From positions 434,001-498,000 of the forward strand of contig NZ_CP134159.1 of NCBI RefSeq assembly GCF_032197885.1: a DNA stretch of 64,000 nt, in the 5' to 3' direction. The notes beneath the pieces were generated by a model. It did no database searches. It was not told the DNA's origin and was given only the letters and a program-made list of their open reading frames with translations. The DNA comes from Levilactobacillus namurensis. GTDB lineage: Bacteria > Bacillota > Bacilli > Lactobacillales > Lactobacillaceae. The position numbers and the translations under genes are program-made. Positions 24,720-32,185 of this stretch are shown piece after piece (the first letter of the stretch is position 1; each line of letters starts with the position of its first letter).

Positions 24720-24748
24720 TCGAAAGTTAGGTGGTGACATGCTATACT
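24720..24748 (+). promoter_or_regulatory. Promoter of antitoxin RNA copy A
   Basis: -35 TCGAAA (24720-24725), 17-base spacer, extended -10 TGCTATACT (TATACT at 24743-24748). Nearly identical to the promoter at 25016-25044. Confidence 0.6.
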
Positions 24749-24754
24749 GCGGGT

Positions 24755-24862
24755 AAGCAAAAGAAGCCCTGTGTGAACAGGACTTCCGATGTAGAGCCGT
24801 TTAAGACGGTGGATTAAGGGTTAAATAACCGCTAGCTGTCCAGAGCTAAGGCGGTTATTTTT
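24755..24862 (+). ncRNA. Type I antitoxin RNA, copy A
   Basis: The RNA would begin with the hairpin GAAGCCCTG/CAGGACTTC and end at the terminator AACCGC...GCGGTT with a T run (24858-24862). Its 3' end overlaps the 3' end of the facing toxin stub, the arrangement of TxpA/RatA-type type I systems. It is highly similar to copy B at 25051-25167. The partner toxin is truncated, so this RNA may now act only on copy B. Confidence 0.55.
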
Positions 24863-25015: not shown

Positions 25016-25044
25016 TCGAAAGTTGGGTGGCGACATGCTATACT
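25016..25044 (+). promoter_or_regulatory. Promoter of antitoxin RNA copy B
   Basis: -35 TCGAAA (25016-25021), 17-base spacer, extended -10 TGCTATACT (TATACT at 25039-25044); strong and constitutive in appearance, as expected for a labile antisense RNA. Confidence 0.65.
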
Positions 25045-25050
25045 GTGGAT

Positions 25051-25167
25051 AAGCAAAAGAAGCCCTGCGTGAACAGGGCTTCCAATGTAGAGCCGTTTAA
25101 GATGGTGGCAGCTTAATATTGGTTAAATAACCGCTAGCTGGTCAGAGCTAAGGCGGTTATTTTTTTT
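25051..25167 (+). ncRNA. Type I antitoxin RNA, copy B
   Basis: Predicted RNA of about 115 nt. It starts with a perfect hairpin GAAGCCCTG/CAGGGCTTC and ends at the terminator AACCGC...GCGGTT followed by eight T (25160-25167). The last bases are antisense to the end of the toxin frame (25157-25167), so pairing would start at the 3' ends of both RNAs. Confidence 0.65.
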
Positions 25168-25261
25168 GCTGATTTTTGATCAGCTCAACAATCAATGCAA
25201 TCAGGACGATGGTAAAGGTCCCGAAAGCTAGCATTAATTGTAACGCGTCCGAAATGGACAC
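25157..25261 (-). CDS. Small membrane toxin, Hol_Tox/TxpA-like (type I toxin-antitoxin)
   Basis: 34 residues, GTG start. The peptide has a short polar N-terminus (MSISDALQ), one hydrophobic helix (LMLAFGTFTIVLIALIVELI) and a basic tail KNQQKK, the layout of the putative holin-like toxins of lactobacilli, which insert in the membrane. AAAGGAG lies eight bases before the GTG. An upstream TTCCTTT at about 25299-25305 can pair with this ribosome site. A facing antisense RNA overlaps the 3' end. Family knowledge plus layout support the call; toxicity is not shown. Confidence 0.72.
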   Translation of the reverse strand: MSISDALQLMLAFGTFTIVLIALIVELIKNQQKK

Positions 25262-25365
25262 TACGGCTACTCCTTTCGTTAGGATTTTGGGGTGCTAAAG
25301 GAATTATCCCATGAGCACCACCCCCAATCGGAAATAGCCACCGCCTTAACTGCTCTACGAAATCT

Positions 25366-25395
25366 AGTATACAGGGACTGGGGACAACCAGCCAA
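25366..25395 (-). promoter_or_regulatory. Toxin mRNA promoter
   Basis: On the minus strand: -35 TTGGCT (25395-25390), 18-base spacer, extended -10 TGTATACT (TATACT at 25371-25366). It gives a leader of about 100 bases, long enough for the ribosome-site sequestration seen in type I systems. Confidence 0.5.
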
Positions 25396-26122: not shown

Positions 26123-26632
26123 CTAAGCCCGGCCGCGAAGCGTGATCGTGGCGGTGTCTAAGACGTGGCCGTTGATTTGGTGTAACAGGTCGTTCAACCA
26201 GAACCCATCCTTGAGGTCCAGGACCGTGTCTAGCGCGTAGACGGTCAGACTGTAGTCGTGGTCCTTATCAGGTGGGAAGGGCCCCGTGTAGTTTTGGAAG
26301 ACGGCGGGGTCGGTGTTGCCGACCAGTGAGCCAGCGTTACTGTTCCGGCCGTGGATGTGGGGAACCGCATTGGTCCGGGAAACGTCCGCGGGAATCTCGC
26401 GGGTCATGCCGGGAAAGTTCGCGGCGACCCAGTGGATCCAGGGGAACCCGGAGACGGGGACGGCGTCGAAGTCGATGAGGTTCAACGCTAAGGTTTTTGT
26501 TTTCTTGGGTAATTTACTGAGACTGATGGGAAACGACGTCACGGGTTGACCACCGTAGACGTTGTCACCGGTGGCGTACTTACTGTAGTCATCGGCAAGG
26601 TACCCGTTTTCTGTCGGTACAAAGATACGCAT
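26123..26632 (-). CDS. YbhB/YbcL-type phosphatidylethanolamine-binding protein family
   Basis: 169 residues. DFDAVPVSGFPWIHWVAANF and the later segment with NYTGPFPPDKDHDYSLTVYALD are the conserved anion-pocket motifs of the bacterial Raf-kinase-inhibitor-like family. GGAGGG precedes the ATG. It is upstream of the usp gene in one operon. The physiological role of this family in lactobacilli is not established. Confidence 0.9.
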   Translation of the reverse strand: MRIFVPTENGYLADDYSKYATGDNVYGGQPVTSFPISLSKLPKKTKTLALNLIDFDAVPVSGFPWIHWVAANFPGMTREIPADVSRTNAVPHIHGRNSNAGSLVGNTDPAVFQNYTGPFPPDKDHDYSLTVYALDTVLDLKDGFWLNDLLHQINGHVLDTATITLRGRA

Positions 26633-26765
26633 GAAATCCCTCCTAAGTCGTGGTGCATACCCCCATTATACCGCAGATACCAGGCTCCTCGCGAGTCTTG
26701 CGGGGGAACTCCTAGACGATAGTTGAATAATTCCGGCCCCGGTAGCGTTGGGCATCCGCCTTACC

Positions 26766-26901
26766 GGGCGCCCAGACAGGGCTGGAACACCGTGGGCACC
26801 ACTTCGAGCCACAGAGCGGTCTCGAAGCTGGACCTTTTCCTAGGCGAGCTGAAGAACGCTCGCCAAGGAAAATTTCACGGCTGAGCCCTGTCTGGGCGCC
26901 C
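26766..26901 (-). ncRNA. Structured RNA unit a1 (novel-looking motif)
   Basis: An 18-bp perfect closing helix (GGGCGCCCAGACAGGGCT and its complement) encloses CCGTG/CACGG, a long hairpin TTTTCCTTGGCGAGC/GCTCGCCTAGGAAAA, and CTTCGAG/CTCGAAG. The single-stranded-looking segment AAGTGGTGCCCAC is shared with the three other units. The 3' side continues into CCGGTAAGGCGG. Confidence 0.6.
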
Positions 26902-26964
26902 TCTCGGCTCACCGTAGTGCTTAAATCATCGACAGTCTTAGTTATGGGCCAGCACCAACGTGAG

Positions 26965-27117
26965 GCCCCGGTAGCCGATAGGGCCCAGCCAGTGAAGTTG
27001 GCGTTAGCCGAGTGGTCCTCTCGGCTTAGGCCAAGGCCGAGCTTTAAGACGGGCGGGTTTTGCGCGGCTTAAAGTCGTGCCCACTGGCGTCACGGCCCTG
27101 CCATCGGCTACCGGGGC
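26965..27117 (+). ncRNA. Structured RNA unit b (novel-looking motif)
   Basis: Same architecture as unit a1 with different paired bases. The closing helix is GCCCCGGTAGCCGAT-AGGGCC, then CCAGTG/CACTGG, the hairpin TTGGCGTTAGCCGAG/CTCGGCTTAGGCCAA, and CTTTAAG/CTTAAAG. The conserved segment AAGTCGTGCCCAC is retained. The changes are compensatory, so RNA (or single-strand DNA) structure is selected. Confidence 0.6.
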
Positions 27118-27265
27118 CGGAATATCCCCACTAATATTCATTTATAATGTATAAAAACTCATATATTTAAATAAACTAGCATAATCTTGCGAAAATGATT
27201 GATTTTTAGGATGATGAGCGTATGCTGGTAACATCTTACGTGTTTGGTGAAGGGATGGATGTGTA

Positions 27266-28423
27266 GTGACACCAGAGAAAAAGCTGACGATTTTGCAGGA
27301 CTTGATTCAGATTCCCTCGGTCAATGACCATGAAGCCGACGTGGCGGATTACATTGCGGACCTATTTGCGCCATATCCCCAGGCTAAGGTCGAACGCCTG
27401 ACCTATGCGCCCGGGCGAGATAACCTGATTGTGACCATTGGCAACGCCGCGGGTCCGCGTCTGGGACTGTCCGGGCACATGGACGTGGTCGCCCCCGGCG
27501 ATACCACGGCTTGGCACCACGATCCCTTTGGCGGCGAGATAGTCGACGGCCGGATGTACGGTCGCGGGACTTCAGACATGAAGAGTGGCCTGGCTGCTTT
27601 AGTGGTCACCATGCTGGACCTCTTAGACCAGGGTGTCGACTTGCCGGGAAGCGTCCGGTTACTGGCGACGGTGGGCGAGGAGACCGGTGAATACGGTGCC
27701 GCCCAACTGACCGACGCTGGCTATGCAGATCATCTGGCTGGCTTGGTCATCGCCGAGCCCAGCGGCCTGGACAACGTGGTCTACACGGCCCGGGGCGTCA
27801 TCGACTACAAGGTGGTGTCGACCGGGAGAGCCAGCCACAGTGCCAGTCCGGAAAAGGGCATCAACGCCATCGACAACCTGATGACCTTCTATAACGCGGT
27901 CCGGCCCCTGATGGCGCAACACACCAAAGTTGATCCTGTTTTGGGTGGCCTGTTACATAACGTCGACCTGATTTCCGGTGGTGAGCAGATCAATTCGATT
28001 CCCGCCCATGCCGAATTGATGGCTAACATGCGGACGATTCCGGCATACCCCAACCGCGTCCTGTACGCCGAATTGGAGGGCTTGATCGCCCAGCTGAACC
28101 AACAGCCCGGCGTTCAGTTGGCGTTGAGTTACAGTTATCCTGAAGAGGCGATTCCGGGTGACCCGAACGCGCCGTTGGTCCAACTGGCCAAGCAGGTCAG
28201 CGACCAGGTCTGCGGCCACGATACCCAGATTGTGGGGTCCGGCGGGGCCAACGATGGCGCCGAATTCTTGCGGGCCAAGGGGGACTTCACCAGTATCGAA
28301 ATTGGTCCCGGCAGCGCAACGTCGCACCAGGTAGACGAGTACGTGGACTTGGACGACTATCTGCAAGCCATTCAGATTTACCAGCAGTTGATCCCCACAT
28401 TTTTCGCCCAATTTACGAAATAA
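27266..28423 (+). CDS. M20 deacylase, ArgE/DapE family
   Basis: 385 residues. The di-zinc motifs SGHMDVV, GRGTSDMKSG, GEETGEYGA and EPSG are all present, with a lid domain in the middle (about 180-295), so the enzyme should be complete. Members hydrolyse N-acyl amino acids, for example N-succinyl-diaminopimelate or acetylornithine. The start is a GTG at 27266 preceded by AAGGGATGG at a slightly long distance. No lysine-pathway genes are nearby, so the substrate is open. Confidence 0.85.
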   Translation: MTPEKKLTILQDLIQIPSVNDHEADVADYIADLFAPYPQAKVERLTYAPGRDNLIVTIGNAAGPRLGLSGHMDVVAPGDTTAWHHDPFGGEIVDGRMYGRGTSDMKSGLAALVVTMLDLLDQGVDLPGSVRLLATVGEETGEYGAAQLTDAGYADHLAGLVIAEPSGLDNVVYTARGVIDYKVVSTGRASHSASPEKGINAIDNLMTFYNAVRPLMAQHTKVDPVLGGLLHNVDLISGGEQINSIPAHAELMANMRTIPAYPNRVLYAELEGLIAQLNQQPGVQLALSYSYPEEAIPGDPNAPLVQLAKQVSDQVCGHDTQIVGSGGANDGAEFLRAKGDFTSIEIGPGSATSHQVDEYVDLDDYLQAIQIYQQLIPTFFAQFTK

Positions 28424-28464
28424 CCGACTTAACTGATTCCTGAAAATAATCATCTGAAAACTTG

Positions 28465-28499
28465 AGAAGTTCCCGTTTTTAGCGGGAGCTTCTTTTTTT
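28465..28499 (+). terminator. Terminator after the M20 deacylase gene
   Basis: Stem GAAGtTCCCG/CGGGAgCTTC with a short loop and TTTTTTT. Confidence 0.85.
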
Positions 28500-28504
28500 G
28501 AAAT

Positions 28505-28527
28505 AACCTATCATTAAATGATAGGTT
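28505..28527. promoter_or_regulatory. Perfect 23-nt palindrome overlapping a promoter
   Basis: AACCTATCATT-a-AATGATAGGTT, followed at once by TATAGTATACAT, which offers a -10. A palindrome at the -35 position is typical of a repressor operator for the surface-protein gene at 28670. The regulator is unknown. Confidence 0.5.
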
Positions 28528-28669
28528 TATATAGTATACATTTAATCGCAAATCATGTATGATGCTATCAGCAATAATCGGGCAATTGACCAACGGTGTT
28601 CGACACCTTTTTTGAAACCGCTTAATCGGGAGCTGAAAGGGTGCGCAAAATTAAATGGGGGGAAACAAC

Positions 28670-30514
28670 ATGCGGATGAAAACGACCACGGCATTACTCT
28701 TGGCGGGCTTACTTTTGGGGGGCAGTCAGGCCGGTAACTTGACCAAGCAAGCCCTAACGCTGACCACGCCCATCGTGGCTCAGGCAGCCACCACTAAGGA
28801 TGCCCTGAGTGGCACCATCGGAACGGCGACCTGGCAGGTTTCCAGTGACGGCAATCTGACCCTAAGCAACGGGACCTTACCGGCAACTACGGCGCAAACG
28901 AGTCCGCTGCGGGCCATTGTCGACCAGTTGGCGGCGGACCCGACTAATATCACGGTGACGCAATTGACGATTGGGGAGCAGGTTAAGGCGCCTACGAGTG
29001 CACACTATCTCTTTGCAGACCTGCCGACGGTGACGCAGTTCAACCATTTAACGAACTTAGACGTCAGTGATGTCACCGATATGTCGGGGATGTTCGCGAA
29101 TAATCCCGGAGTGACCACCATGGCTATCACGGGGTGGGACACCCGCAACGTGACCAGCATGGATGCGATGTTTAACTCGAACTCCGCGTTGGAGACGGTG
29201 AAGCTGGGACGCTTGGAGACCCCGAAGCTGACCCGGATGCAGATCATGTTTGCCCTGGATAGTCACCTGACGGACCTGGACTTATCTGGATTGGACACAG
29301 CGGGCGTGACCAACAACTACATGATGTTATCGAACGACTATAACTTGGAGAACCTGAACCTGGGAAACTGGCAAGGGACCGGGTCGACGTCCTACTTGAT
29401 GGGCTACACGCAGATCAGCAACTTGCATCAATTGACTCTGAGCCCGCAGATCAAGTTGACTAAGGGAACGTTCTTTAACCTGGACACCACGCACTATCCG
29501 TTATTGGATACCGAAATCTATACGGGCAAGTGGGAGAACGTTCAGGATAAGTACGTGCCTGCGGGGACGCCGGGTAAACGGGCGTACACCACTAGCGAAC
29601 TGGAAGCGCTCTATGACGGCACCCATACGGATGAGCTGAGTGGCAATGAGACCTACCAATGGGAACCGCTACTGACGCCGGAAAAGGAAAATGGTGCGGC
29701 GGTCACGGTCCACTATCACGACCAAAACGGGAAGACCATTAAGGAAGACGACCAATTGACGGGTAAGCTGGATGAGACTTTTACCGTCGAAGCGCCAACC
29801 ATTGACGGCTACACGTTACAGGATACCCAAGGTGTCACTTCTGGAACCTACACCACGGAACCCCAGAGCGTGACCTTCGTGTACCACAAGGACGCGGACG
29901 AGTCGTCGGATTCTTCGAGTTCATCCAGCGCCACGACCCCATCCGGTGATACTAATTCGGGTGGTGGCTCCAGTGCGGATTCGTCCAGTACCACCGGCTC
30001 ATCGTCTGCCGAAAGTTCCAGTAGTCTCGAATCGTCGGGATCGGCCAACTTGGTTCAACCTAAGATGAGTGTGACGGCGGTCAAGAAGATCGGCTTCTAC
30101 CGGACGGCGAATTTCTCGGTGAAGAACCGGTTGAAGTGGTTCCCTAAGCAGACGCGGACCAAGCGGCCGCAGTTCGTAGTGGTCAAGACGGCTTACTCGA
30201 AGAAGGGGCTCTTACGCTACCAGGTCAAGGACGTGAATAAGGGCTCCAAGACTTACGGTAAGCGCGGTTATATCACGACTCAGCAATCTTACGTCAAGGG
30301 AACTTACGCCACGACCAAGCCTAAGGCCATCAAGGTGGTCAAGGGGCTGAACGGCTACCGGGATGTGAAGTTAAGCCGCAAGCAGACCCACTACCGGCAG
30401 GGCCAACGCCTAGCGGTCAAGAAGCTGGTTCGGCATAACCTGACCACACGGTACCTGTTGAAGAACGGGCAATACGTGTCCGCGAACCTGAACTTTAGTC
30501 AGGCAGTGAAATAA
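28670..30514 (+). CDS. BspA-like surface protein with MucBP and C-terminal wall-binding-like domain
   Basis: 614 residues. A signal peptide (about 1-37, ending near AQA) precedes BspA/DUF285-type leucine-rich units (about 90-260; LDVSDVTDMSGMF, WDTRNVTSMDAMF). Then come a MucBP domain (about 345-405), a Ser-rich linker (about 405-465) and a basic repeat region (about 465-614; IGFYRTANFSVKNRL, LNGYRDVKLSRKQT) of the DUF5776 kind, which probably binds the cell wall non-covalently. There is no LPXTG motif. The start at 28670 follows GGGGGG; an ATG at 28655 lies before that site. Probably an adhesin. It sits between the two structured RNA elements. Confidence 0.82.
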   Translation: MRMKTTTALLLAGLLLGGSQAGNLTKQALTLTTPIVAQAATTKDALSGTIGTATWQVSSDGNLTLSNGTLPATTAQTSPLRAIVDQLAADPTNITVTQLTIGEQVKAPTSAHYLFADLPTVTQFNHLTNLDVSDVTDMSGMFANNPGVTTMAITGWDTRNVTSMDAMFNSNSALETVKLGRLETPKLTRMQIMFALDSHLTDLDLSGLDTAGVTNNYMMLSNDYNLENLNLGNWQGTGSTSYLMGYTQISNLHQLTLSPQIKLTKGTFFNLDTTHYPLLDTEIYTGKWENVQDKYVPAGTPGKRAYTTSELEALYDGTHTDELSGNETYQWEPLLTPEKENGAAVTVHYHDQNGKTIKEDDQLTGKLDETFTVEAPTIDGYTLQDTQGVTSGTYTTEPQSVTFVYHKDADESSDSSSSSSATTPSGDTNSGGGSSADSSSTTGSSSAESSSSLESSGSANLVQPKMSVTAVKKIGFYRTANFSVKNRLKWFPKQTRTKRPQFVVVKTAYSKKGLLRYQVKDVNKGSKTYGKRGYITTQQSYVKGTYATTKPKAIKVVKGLNGYRDVKLSRKQTHYRQGQRLAVKKLVRHNLTTRYLLKNGQYVSANLNFSQAVK

Positions 30515-30541
30515 AAGGTGACACGCAAACATCCTAAGATT

Positions 30542-30578
30542 AGCGCTGTAAAACTGTCTTGGTTTTACAGCGCTTCCT
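30542..30578 (+). terminator. Hairpin after the BspA-like gene
   Basis: Perfect 12-bp stem AGCGCTGTAAAA/TTTTACAGCGCT with a 9-base loop; the tail TTCCTTG is poor in T, so termination may be inefficient. Confidence 0.6.
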
Positions 30579-30651
30579 TGAGTGACATTGCGATAGCTTT
30601 ATTAGAACCGGCCTTAAAACAAAAACGTGGTGATTGTCACCCGCCTTACCG

Positions 30652-30785
30652 GACGGCCAGACAAGGCTGGAACGCCGTGGGCACCACTTCGAGCCACAGA
30701 GCGGTCTCGAAGCCGGGCCTTTTCCTAGGCGAGCTGAAAAACGCTCACCAAGGAAAATTTCACGGCTGAGCCTTGTCTGACCGTC
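30652..30785 (-). ncRNA. Structured RNA unit a2 (novel-looking motif)
   Basis: Very similar to unit a1. The closing helix pairs CAGACAAGGCT with AGCCTTGTCTG where a1 has a G-C pair in place of the A-T pair, a compensatory change. The hairpin TTTTCCTTGG...CCTAGGAAAA and the segment AAGTGGTGCCCAC are kept. Confidence 0.6.
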
Positions 30786-31043
30786 TAACCATAGTGTTCA
30801 CCATTAGGTCACGGTACTCAAGCATATTATTGACGACTATGATCACTTAAAAAACCTCATCCTAAACAGGATAAGGTCACAGTGGTCGTTTGCGTGAATC
30901 AGACCGTCAAACGTTTGCAACATCAAGTGGATGATGACGTGTACCATTGATTCGAAGCCCAATAAGGCTGGTCTGATCAGCAGTCACGCATGTTGTTCAA
31001 ACTTCAGAAAGTACTGTTTTGGGTACGCTCAATTTAGCCGTGA

Positions 31044-31185
31044 GGTTGGTCCTGAAGAGGCTCAGTGGTGTCGTTTGGGTTAGTCAGCGTTTTGGGCTGG
31101 CTTACCCAAAGGCCGAGCTTGAAGACCTGGGGCTTTCAGGGCTCCAAGTCGTGCCCACCACGTTCCAGCCTCTTCAGGGTCAACC
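31044..31185 (+). ncRNA. Structured RNA unit c (novel-looking motif)
   Basis: The closing helix is CCTGAAGAGGCT/AGCCTCTTCAGG plus GGTTG/CAACC, then GTGGTG/CACCAC, the hairpin TTTGGGTTAGTCAGC/GCTGGCTTACCCAAA, and CCTG/CAGG. AAGTCGTGCCCAC is conserved. It is followed by CCGGTAAGGCGG, as on the 3' side of a1 and a2. Confidence 0.6.
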
Positions 31186-31234
31186 GGTAAGGCGGATGAT
31201 TGCTACCATCTATCCCTTGACTAAATGTAAGAAA

Positions 31235-31267
31235 GGAGCCTGGGACAAAGCGCCCAGGCTCCTTTTA
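31235..31267. terminator. Bidirectional terminator
   Basis: Perfect stem GGAGCCTGGG/CCCAGGCTCC with loop ACAAAGCG and T-rich tails on both strands (TTTTATT and TTTCTT). Confidence 0.75.
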
Positions 31268-31352: not shown

Positions 31353-31979
31353 TTACCGGACGAACTGTAAGTTGTAGTTACCTTGACCATCGGACGTGAT
31401 GGTGTAGTTGTTGTACCCGGCTTGCAACCACTGGTTCTTCGAGGCCTGGGCCCAGTTCTGGGCGTCACCTACGGACGAGAAGGTGTGGGTGGTGTCGAAG
31501 GTCGTAGGGTTCTGACTGGTCTTCTTAGCCGACGAGGTTGCGGGTGCAGACGAACTGCTGCTGGTCGTGGCGGTGCTGGAGACCTTAGTCTGATCCAATA
31601 ACTTCTGTTCGCGTTTCTGGACAGCTTGATTGGATTCTTGATCGATCATTTTTTGTAATTTTTGCTTTTGCGTGACGGTAATCCCATTGTCGTTGTACGC
31701 ATCGAGCCGTTTTTGGAACTGGCTGTACGCGGATGCTTGCGATGCCGATGACGCGTGGGCCAGCATCGCGGAGTCCGAGCTGGAAGCCGTGGTCGAATGT
31801 GTGCTGACGGCCTTGTGCCCGTTGATGGCCAGGACTAGCAGGATGGCGATGGCCAGCGTGAGCAGGGTCATGATCCAGGGCCACCACCGCCGTTGACGGT
31901 GCCGACGACGCAGTGGCCGTTGGTCATCGGCATTAAAGTTATACCGTTGTACGCGTGATTTTGGTTCTTGGTTGTTCAA
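31353..31979 (-). CDS. Single-pass membrane protein of unknown function
   Basis: 208 residues from the TTG at 31979, chosen because GGAGG lies eight bases upstream; that site overlaps an in-frame ATG at 31994. A very basic cytosolic N-terminus (RRRHRQRRWWPW) leads into one membrane helix (about 39-58). The outside part is Ser/Ala-rich with a coiled-coil-like stretch (KQKLQKMIDQESNQAVQKREQ split over about 115-140). It ends in a small domain (DAQNWAQASKNQWLQAGYNN) resembling C-terminal domains of other lactobacillar envelope proteins. I do not recognise a function. Confidence 0.65.
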   Translation of the reverse strand: MNNQEPKSRVQRYNFNADDQRPLRRRHRQRRWWPWIMTLLTLAIAILLVLAINGHKAVSTHSTTASSSDSAMLAHASSASQASAYSQFQKRLDAYNDNGITVTQKQKLQKMIDQESNQAVQKREQKLLDQTKVSSTATTSSSSSAPATSSAKKTSQNPTTFDTTHTFSSVGDAQNWAQASKNQWLQAGYNNYTITSDGQGNYNLQFVR

Positions 31980-32185
31980 CTGAAAAACCTCCATGTTCAA
32001 AACGGTGTAAAAAACGAGCCTGCCGAACCGACGGCAAACTACCACACCCTTCATAGTAACGCAAAAGCGTCGTGGTGAAAAATCTAAACGCCCTAATTGC
32101 GGAAAAAACGGGGAATGATTTTCGGAACGGTCCCGGATATTGTATGATAGACCTGTAATCAAGTTTGAAAGGTGGTTTTTTTGTC

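Follow-up and report, generated by a model that had tools for sequence, protein, structure and literature searches.

Why should a bacterial chromosome carry, at two places within a short distance of each other, a divergent pair of copies of the same folded sequence? The question is raised by the window analysed here, a 64,000-nucleotide stretch of a Levilactobacillus chromosome (contig NZ_CP134159.1, positions 434,001 to 498,000), which holds one such pair within 26730-27123 and another within 30637-31199. The original prediction had described the four units as a covarying structured RNA, either a mobile repeat resembling bacterial interspersed mosaic elements (BIMEs) or miniature inverted-repeat transposable elements (MITEs), or an unclassified RNA family. 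Both descriptions hold in part, as the units have dispersed copies, covary and are covered by no Rfam family; strict BIME/REPIN membership fails because there is no Y1 transposase in the genome.

On balance, we favor the explanation that each pair represents a copy of a mobile, invertible two-arm repeat of Lactobacillaceae that is dispersed and non-autonomous and whose ends are the folded arms. The element consists of two ~160-nt arms that point outward and have one conserved three-way-junction structure. The main features that go beyond the original prediction are the number of genomic copies, which exceeds 100, and the inversion of the element in place between sister species.

Structure of the arms

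A covariance model, R1, was built from 25 units of the genome that contains the window (own genome, G000, 2.78 Mb, with C1 as its chromosome contig). R1 places four arms in the window. The first composite consists of arm A (26756-26911, minus strand; C1:460756-460911; 152.6 bits) and arm C (26961-27120, plus strand; 132.0 bits), with a spacer at 26912-26960 and a gap of 50 between the divergent arms. The second composite consists of another arm A (30641-30793, minus strand; 146.3 bits) and arm B (31034-31195, plus strand; 156.4 bits), with a spacer at 30794-31033 and a gap of 241. Folded singly, the arms all take one general shape, in which a long closing helix of ~17-20 pairs leads through an internal loop to an inner helix and then to a three-way junction that bears two hairpins. 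The minimum energies, in the order in which the arms are given above, are -103.1, -103.6, -89.6 and -87.3 kcal/mol (z-scores of -10.2, -7.8, -10.0 and -6.9), and for no arm was the energy equalled by any of 200 dinucleotide shuffles. The four positions and the single architecture of the original prediction are both confirmed by these matches and folds.

Inverted repeats bound both pairs, as had been proposed. In pair 1 the left repeat (26730-26746) lies outside arm A and equals the end of the C arm, and the right repeat (27107-27123) is the 3' end of arm C; the two are complementary at 17 of 17 nt (100%), and in L. namurensis the element likewise begins with the sequence of the left repeat. 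Arm A itself has the outer end CATCCGCCTTACCGG (26753-26767, minus strand), which reads CCGGTAAGGCGGATG outward and recurs at many arm ends of the own genome. In pair 2 the repeats are 16 nt long (30637-30652 and 31184-31199) and complementary at 15 of 16 positions (94%). The 3' tag reported for three of the four units, CCGGTAAGGCGG, was found in three of the four arms. The segment AAGTnGTGCCCAC, which had been called invariant, is indeed identical in all four window arms yet varies across the family; it is replaced by AAGTCGTGTCGGC in one arm of the composite between galK-like and galE-like genes in locus L108 and in locus L111.

A dispersed family

In the own genome R1 identifies 136 arms (the best 150 of 1269 candidates were scored), which total 21,472 bases or 0.77% of its length, and blast searches with single units returned at least ~40 places each. 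The arms fall into three sequence types: A (26756-26911 and 30641-30793 in the window), B (31034-31195) and C (26961-27120). The 106 full units that were typed, which are 123 blast places minus 17 short or weak ones, comprise 50 A, 27 B and 29 C. A fourth type, D, is the partner of A at four sites (C1:554479, 2378832, 2430461 and 2672421) and has an outer end that resembles CGCCGGAGGGCG; the D arm at 2672421 matches its L. namurensis counterpart poorly (67%). The arrangement of the arms is strongly biased, with 48 divergent adjacencies ('-+') within 600 nt, one '--', one '++' and no convergent one, and 40 of the 136 arms stand outside divergent pairs. The gaps of the A/C composites are mostly 41-66 nt, with two exceptions (146 and 184), and those of the A/B composites are mostly ~175-285 nt. 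The layout is thus one of high-copy inverted doublets (48 divergent pairs among 136 arms) that are intergenic, with 2 of 60 classified sites flagged for overlap with a called open reading frame (ORF).

R1 places no arm in C1:929190-1716838, a stretch of 787 kb, and the longest gap in 20,000 uniform simulations was 425 kb. This stretch is placed near the expected terminus because it lies mid-chromosome on a contig that starts with a dnaA-like gene (identified by eye). An origin-proximal bias as a general rule was rejected, as the Levilactobacillus genome G005 has matches along the whole chromosome, many of them weak. In a composite at C1:840989-841578 (L047) an unusual hairpin-2 sequence, AGCTTGGRGACTATGGAYTTGGG, is common to the B and A arms, which gives the impression that one arm was copied from its partner.

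Covariation and strand preference

When 150 arms from different species are aligned to R1, 95.8% of the cells pair in the standard fashion and two-sided change is found in 37 of 38 pairs. The two-sided cells number 1338, compared with 383 after shuffling and 84-174 when the partners are slid, in an alignment that was fitted to the R1 model. In a sequence-only alignment of 25 own units two-sided change is found in 23 of 38 pairs, and sequence-only alignments within the A, B and C types also give high pairing. The compensatory change seen in the stems by the original prediction is therefore strong, both in the sequence-only alignments of the own genome and across genera.

A strand test counted substitutions along trees; for the own families it was limited to pairs predicted from both strands, and for the cross-species set it followed the R1 structure. 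Steps from Watson-Crick (WC) pairs to G-U outnumber steps to A-C in the own families (69 vs 33 inferred events, p = 2e-4) as well as in the cross-species set (94 vs 38, p = 6e-7). G-T and A-C mismatches should be tolerated equally in a palindrome of which nothing but the double-stranded DNA form matters, and the wobble excess therefore indicates that the outward-reading strand is kept folded. The favored strand reads outward through each arm, so that it is the opposite strand for the two arms of a pair. These results demonstrate that the structure is maintained by compensatory change and that the outward-reading strand is favored. Wobble pairs are scarce (232 of 5421 cells), and DNA hairpins, too, tolerate G-T better than A-C; for these two reasons RNA and single-stranded DNA are not separated by the strand bias alone.

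The cross-species trees also contain 438 WC-to-WC double changes without an intermediate, and at several sites the arms look converted or replaced from other copies. Taken together, these two observations point to sequence exchange between copies.

Inversion in place between sister species

The own genome was compared with L. namurensis DSM 19117 (G018), a draft in many contigs that is treated as a sister species, using one genome per species. At the site of pair 1 the own genome has A(-) then C(+) and L. namurensis has C(-) then A(+). The inverted segment (26753-27123) matches at 96.5% identity, and the nearest flanks are collinear at 96.6 and 98.1%. The own genome has two copies of the 17-nt end, so that the event at this site was not strictly conservative. 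At four sites identity is 96.5-97.7% across the inverted segment and 89-98% across the nearest flanks.

Of 86 own clusters, 10 were set aside for their flanks and 27 for want of an orthologue, which left 49 orthologous sites. The orientation is the same at 29 of these and inverted at 17; two are unclear and the element is absent from one. The same procedure found no inversion among 55 mapped intergenic gaps that lack units (150 tried) or among 48 mapped random blocks (120 tried). A strict set, in which two arms match at 94% or more each (a threshold picked after the results were seen), contains 15 sites, of which seven are inverted (366, 460, 499, 1840, 2325, 2393 and 2418 kb) and eight are the same (320, 381, 554, 2187, 2200, 2364, 2378 and 2430 kb). 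For the 1840-kb cluster the first two arms were counted, the third having a match of 78%, and the highest-scoring copy elsewhere comes close to the orthologue (322 vs 326). Both orientations at a fixed site, as in invertons, are thus found at 17 of 49 sites and at 7 of 15 in the strict set, which demonstrates that the whole composite stands in opposite orientations at fixed sites in the two sister species.

At the clean sites the inverted segment spans from near one outer end of the element to near the other. Many element ends read CATCCG inward. At several sites a longer inverted repeat around CGCCTTACCGG, up to ~24 bp in length, is shared (judged by eye), and terminal inverted repeats, as expected of a MITE of a DDE transposon, are present at many sites. 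The A/C composites are about evenly split between inverted and same orientation (by eye).

Gain and loss between the two species are small. One of the 49 own sites, at C1:362 kb, is empty in L. namurensis and is the only clear presence/absence difference; in the reverse view, 2 of 25 mapped L. namurensis clusters have no R1 arm at the own site. No target-site duplication could be defined from the site at 362 kb, where the two species have different target regions as well. At the site of pair 1 in congeners the gap between the genes is 187-306 nt in 27 of 29 loci, compared with 633 nt in the own genome, and by coordinates no R1 match falls inside the 27 short gaps. These short gaps argue for mobility on a longer time scale.

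Scans of two further sets of genomes, G002/G007/G009 (~83-85% identity) and G015/G017/G029 (~90-91%), called no inversion and also missed the known inversions used as a positive control; they are uninformative because these inversions were bridged too.

Distribution in Lactobacillaceae

The search of lactobacillar genomes with a covariance model, a step that the original prediction had itself proposed, gave R1 matches in 33 of 35 genomes of the genus, the own genome among them; G012 and G024 are the two genomes without a match. A DNA pattern of the conserved core was also scanned over GTDB genome contigs and returned at least 120 stretches. R1 confirmed arms in 117 of the 120 stretches listed, with 63 '-+' adjacencies, eight tandem and no convergent ones, and all 117 belong to Lactobacillaceae by record title. 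The genera among the listed stretches are Levilactobacillus, Companilactobacillus, Pediococcus, Lacticaseibacillus, Schleiferilactobacillus and Lactiplantibacillus, together with metagenome-assembled genomes (MAGs) labelled Lactobacillus or Limosilactobacillus. The lone stretch from outside the family, in a Dinoroseobacter MAG, has no R1 match. In samples of the order and the class, matches were found in at least 24 of 395 genomes, all of the same family and from at least 7 of 80 genera, and in at least one of 398 genomes (the own genome), respectively; both counts are lower bounds because stricter filters were used and the best seven candidates per genome were scored. R1 has no match outside Lactobacillaceae among the genomes sampled.

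The number of arms differs by species (77 in G005, 39 in G034 and 14 in G256). The genomes G005, G015, G017 and G029 contain a diverged subfamily with many arms of ~175-190 nt that score ~25-60 bits with R1 and would need a separate model, and G003, G006, G025 and G030 may also contain it, judging from their low best R1 scores. Three Levilactobacillus species (L108 4985-5327, L111 4594-4940 and L144 5772-6166) have a composite that is flanked by a galK-like and a galE-like gene, both named by eye. A weak match at L193 1600-1702 on the plus strand was excluded from the arm counts and from the clustering of neighbor genes.

Searches of limited sensitivity found no exact match to the core pattern in IMG/VR, no blastn match to either composite in plasmids and no blastn match to the second composite, the only one searched, in phages. 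A phage, plasmid or viral origin was rejected on these results, which are empty at the sensitivities used.

A known RNA family was rejected as well. At the gathering cut-offs of Rfam 15 (4227 families) nothing lies over any unit of the window or over the arms in six loci of other species. At E<=10 there are only sub-threshold, chance-level matches to the window units, none of which spans a whole unit, and the nearest touches the 3' edge of arm B. With Rfam empty over the units and two-sided change in nearly every pair, the idea of an unclassified structured-RNA family holds in part. A literature search on lactobacillar MITE-like, REP-like and structured-RNA repeats, invertible DNA, small inversions, bcr1 and enterococcal repeats, most subscription papers lying outside its scope, turned up no description of the family or of the flipping of such repeats, and the repeat family is apparently undescribed.

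Mobility, inversion and alternative explanations

If each pair is a copy of a mobile, invertible two-arm repeat, the arms would be the ends of the element, and a trans-acting recombinase or transposase would recognize the folded arm together with the CATCCG.../...CGGATG termini. The folded arm may be recognized as RNA, or as single-stranded DNA with the outer end as its 3' end. Such an enzyme would spread copies rarely and flip composites in place often, and each flip would exchange the arm that faces each neighboring gene. Flipping may also do without a dedicated enzyme and arise when the inverted repeats are replicated or recombine. It is possible that the arms, as RNA, influence neighboring transcripts. 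We keep the mechanism in the conditional because the Y1 transposase is absent, serine recombinases are few, tyrosine recombinases occur in all four genomes tested and no protein family recurs widely beside the arms.

Several observations weigh against a mobile element that is flipped by its own enzyme. At 9 of the 17 inverted sites another copy in the own genome outscores the orthologue when compared with the L. namurensis segment, although these scores are a guide only, as the cores differ in length; with the arms that look converted, this means that such sites may represent replacement and not simple inversion. The A/B composites were called inverted at one of nine sites and the A/D composites at none of four (types assigned by eye), all four type D sites being called in the same orientation, so that flipping is not a property of every composite. 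The flip is seen in one species pair only, and the arms of the galK-galE composite are orthologous and not inverted between L108 and L111. In the search for an enzyme, neither the own genome nor L. namurensis gave a match to PF01797 (Y1 transposase). Serine recombinases number two in the own genome (on small contigs), one in L. namurensis, five in G012 and none in G024, and a serine invertase is a possible but unsupported candidate for the enzyme; tyrosine recombinases are present in all four genomes, with and without arms. Clustering of the 342 ORFs that lie no more than 900 nt from an arm in the 117 loci, with families named by eye, gave no recombinase-like or transposase-like family among the 12 widest clusters, the widest being ABC-transporter-like (7 loci). 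A scan for sigma-70-like consensus promoters was negative within both composites.

A mobiliser encoded in cis was rejected, as no recombinase is recognizable among these widest neighbor families of the 117 loci. An autonomous partner with matching ends was likewise looked for, and no recurring transposase lies near the arms in a search that did not screen whole genomes for every transposase family.

A bolder form of the mobile-element explanation, which we put forward tentatively and consider improbable as it stands, is that of a new class of mobile element whose ends are folded nucleic-acid modules. A dedicated enzyme would read the outward strand of the arm, in the form of RNA or of single-stranded DNA, and would spread and flip the composite; each genome would then contain dozens of independent two-state switches that swap the arm facing each neighboring gene.

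One alternative dispenses with an enzyme and with an RNA function altogether. The elements would be selfish or relic MITEs, quasi-palindromes that are flipped and homogenized by template switching during replication or by recombination between inverted repeats. Template-switch correction of palindromes would likewise yield paired changes, and the 438 direct WC-to-WC double changes, compared with 94 and 38 cross-species steps to G-U and A-C, speak for this alternative. The lack of an associated recombinase among the neighboring genes, the junctions of pair 1, where the 17-nt end occurs twice, and the arms that look converted from other copies are also in its favor. Correction of palindromes should, however, treat G-T and A-C alike, yet on the outward strand the wobble steps outnumber those to A-C by ~2:1, and the same fold recurs across genera. 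We regard this explanation as doubtful, if worth keeping in view.

It has also to be considered that the arms are a regulatory RNA family, transcribed outward or lying in the 3' untranslated part of neighboring transcripts and acting in, for example, termination, stability or protein binding; the symmetric layout would give one correctly oriented arm either way. The strand-specific bias agrees with this, as do the many B arms that stand directly before terminator-like hairpins (by eye). The sites are also more common between convergent genes (24 of 60 sites compared with 79 of 312 gaps, by simple ORF calls, the 312 including the sites). The uneven copy number and the two genus genomes without a match argue against an essential role, and the composites gave no promoter signal. 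A family of regulatory RNAs is, in our judgment, rather unlikely.

An assembly artefact, in which draft assemblies orient segments flanked by inverted repeats at random, is very unlikely. The L. namurensis assembly is a draft of many contigs and the repeats are high in copy, but the arms of a pair are unlike in sequence and have terminal repeats in common that reach ~24 bp at most, which is shorter than a typical sequencing read; the inverted segments of the strict set, moreover, are orthologues of the same site. The least probable explanation, to which we give almost no weight, is that of REP doublets mobilized by a RAYT (Y1 HUH transposase) as in REPINs and BIMEs, since the similar layout of intergenic, high-copy inverted pairs of palindromic units (PMC3116915) is set against arms of ~160 nt with three-way junctions where REPs are palindromes of 20-40 bp (PMC3733652), and PF01797, matched in 23 of 35 genus genomes, is absent from the two arm-rich genomes and present in the R1-negative G012 and G024, which led us to reject REPIN/RAYT mobilization as a current mechanism, barring a Y1 enzyme too distant for PF01797 to match.

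Comparison with known systems

The two-arm repeat of Lactobacillaceae has features in common with several known systems. REPINs and BIMEs with a RAYT are also intergenic inverted doublets of palindromic units in high copy number with a short spacer, in which the doublet is the replicating unit according to the account in PMC3116915. The composites differ from them in the size and three-way junctions of the arms, in the lack of a Y1 transposase in the genome and in their inversion in place. EFAR, BOX and RUP are small repeats of enterococci and streptococci. Like the arms, such repeats are dispersed, form stem-loops and occur in related Firmicutes, and BOX is modular; unlike them, the arms have R1 matches only in Lactobacillaceae among the genomes sampled. 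The repeat bcr1 is a single unit and not an obligate divergent pair, and to our knowledge it does not invert in place. It is nevertheless similar to the arms in being a dispersed structured repeat of like length (147-167 in the Bacillus cereus group, PMC2267715) with traits of a mobile element and a restriction to one bacterial group; the table of the same paper names Efa-1 as an enterococcal small repeat.

Invertons, including invertible promoters and other phase-variable switches, are like the composites short segments with terminal inverted repeats that occur in both orientations at a fixed site (PMC11892184). The composites differ in that no invertase gene was found nearby, two structured arms lie inside the segment and many related copies occur per genome. 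The survey in PMC11892184 gives a median of 0 invertons per genome for Bacillus-like Firmicutes. If the inversions are confirmed, small invertible segments could number in the dozens in one lactobacillus genome, although invertons are reportedly rare in this group (PMC11892184). The family also provides a testable system, in a genus of food bacteria, for asking how a folded structure can serve both as the end of a mobile element and as a conserved RNA-like object, with more than 100 natural variants in the own genome and a sister species that differs in orientation at known sites. It fills a gap in annotation, because ~0.8% of the own genome belongs to a structured family that is absent from Rfam 15.

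Genomic surroundings

The genes on either side of pair 1 are divergent and encode a PEBP-family protein (26123-26632) and an M20 peptidase (27266-28423). Those around pair 2 are convergent; one encodes a MucBP/DUF285 surface protein (28655-30514) and the other is an ORF (31353-32162) without a convincing Pfam match. The surface-protein gene that the original prediction had placed beside each pair appears to be incidental, as the widest neighbor family in the 117 loci of other genomes is the ABC-transporter-like one. By simple ORF calls, the neighbor genes of 60 own sites are convergent at 24, '--' at 21, '++' at 10 and divergent at five (a 61st site had no near neighbor), and the 312 gaps overall, sites included, comprise 79 convergent, 97 '--', 66 '++' and 70 divergent.

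By eye, many of the 27 B arms directly precede terminator-like hairpins, which vary in sequence among the copies. In the window such a hairpin with a 13-pair stem (31232-31265) lies just past the outer end of arm B and is probably a host terminator. At C1:362019-362615 a B arm has a short hairpin as its partner in place of arm A and stands beside a terminator (by eye); it is absent from L. namurensis. Elsewhere in the window, two Rfam matches to RatA, a type I antitoxin RNA, and one to rli28 are clustered at 24745-24827 (plus strand), 25041-25129 (plus strand) and 25192-25378 (minus strand), and they possibly form a type I toxin-antitoxin array.

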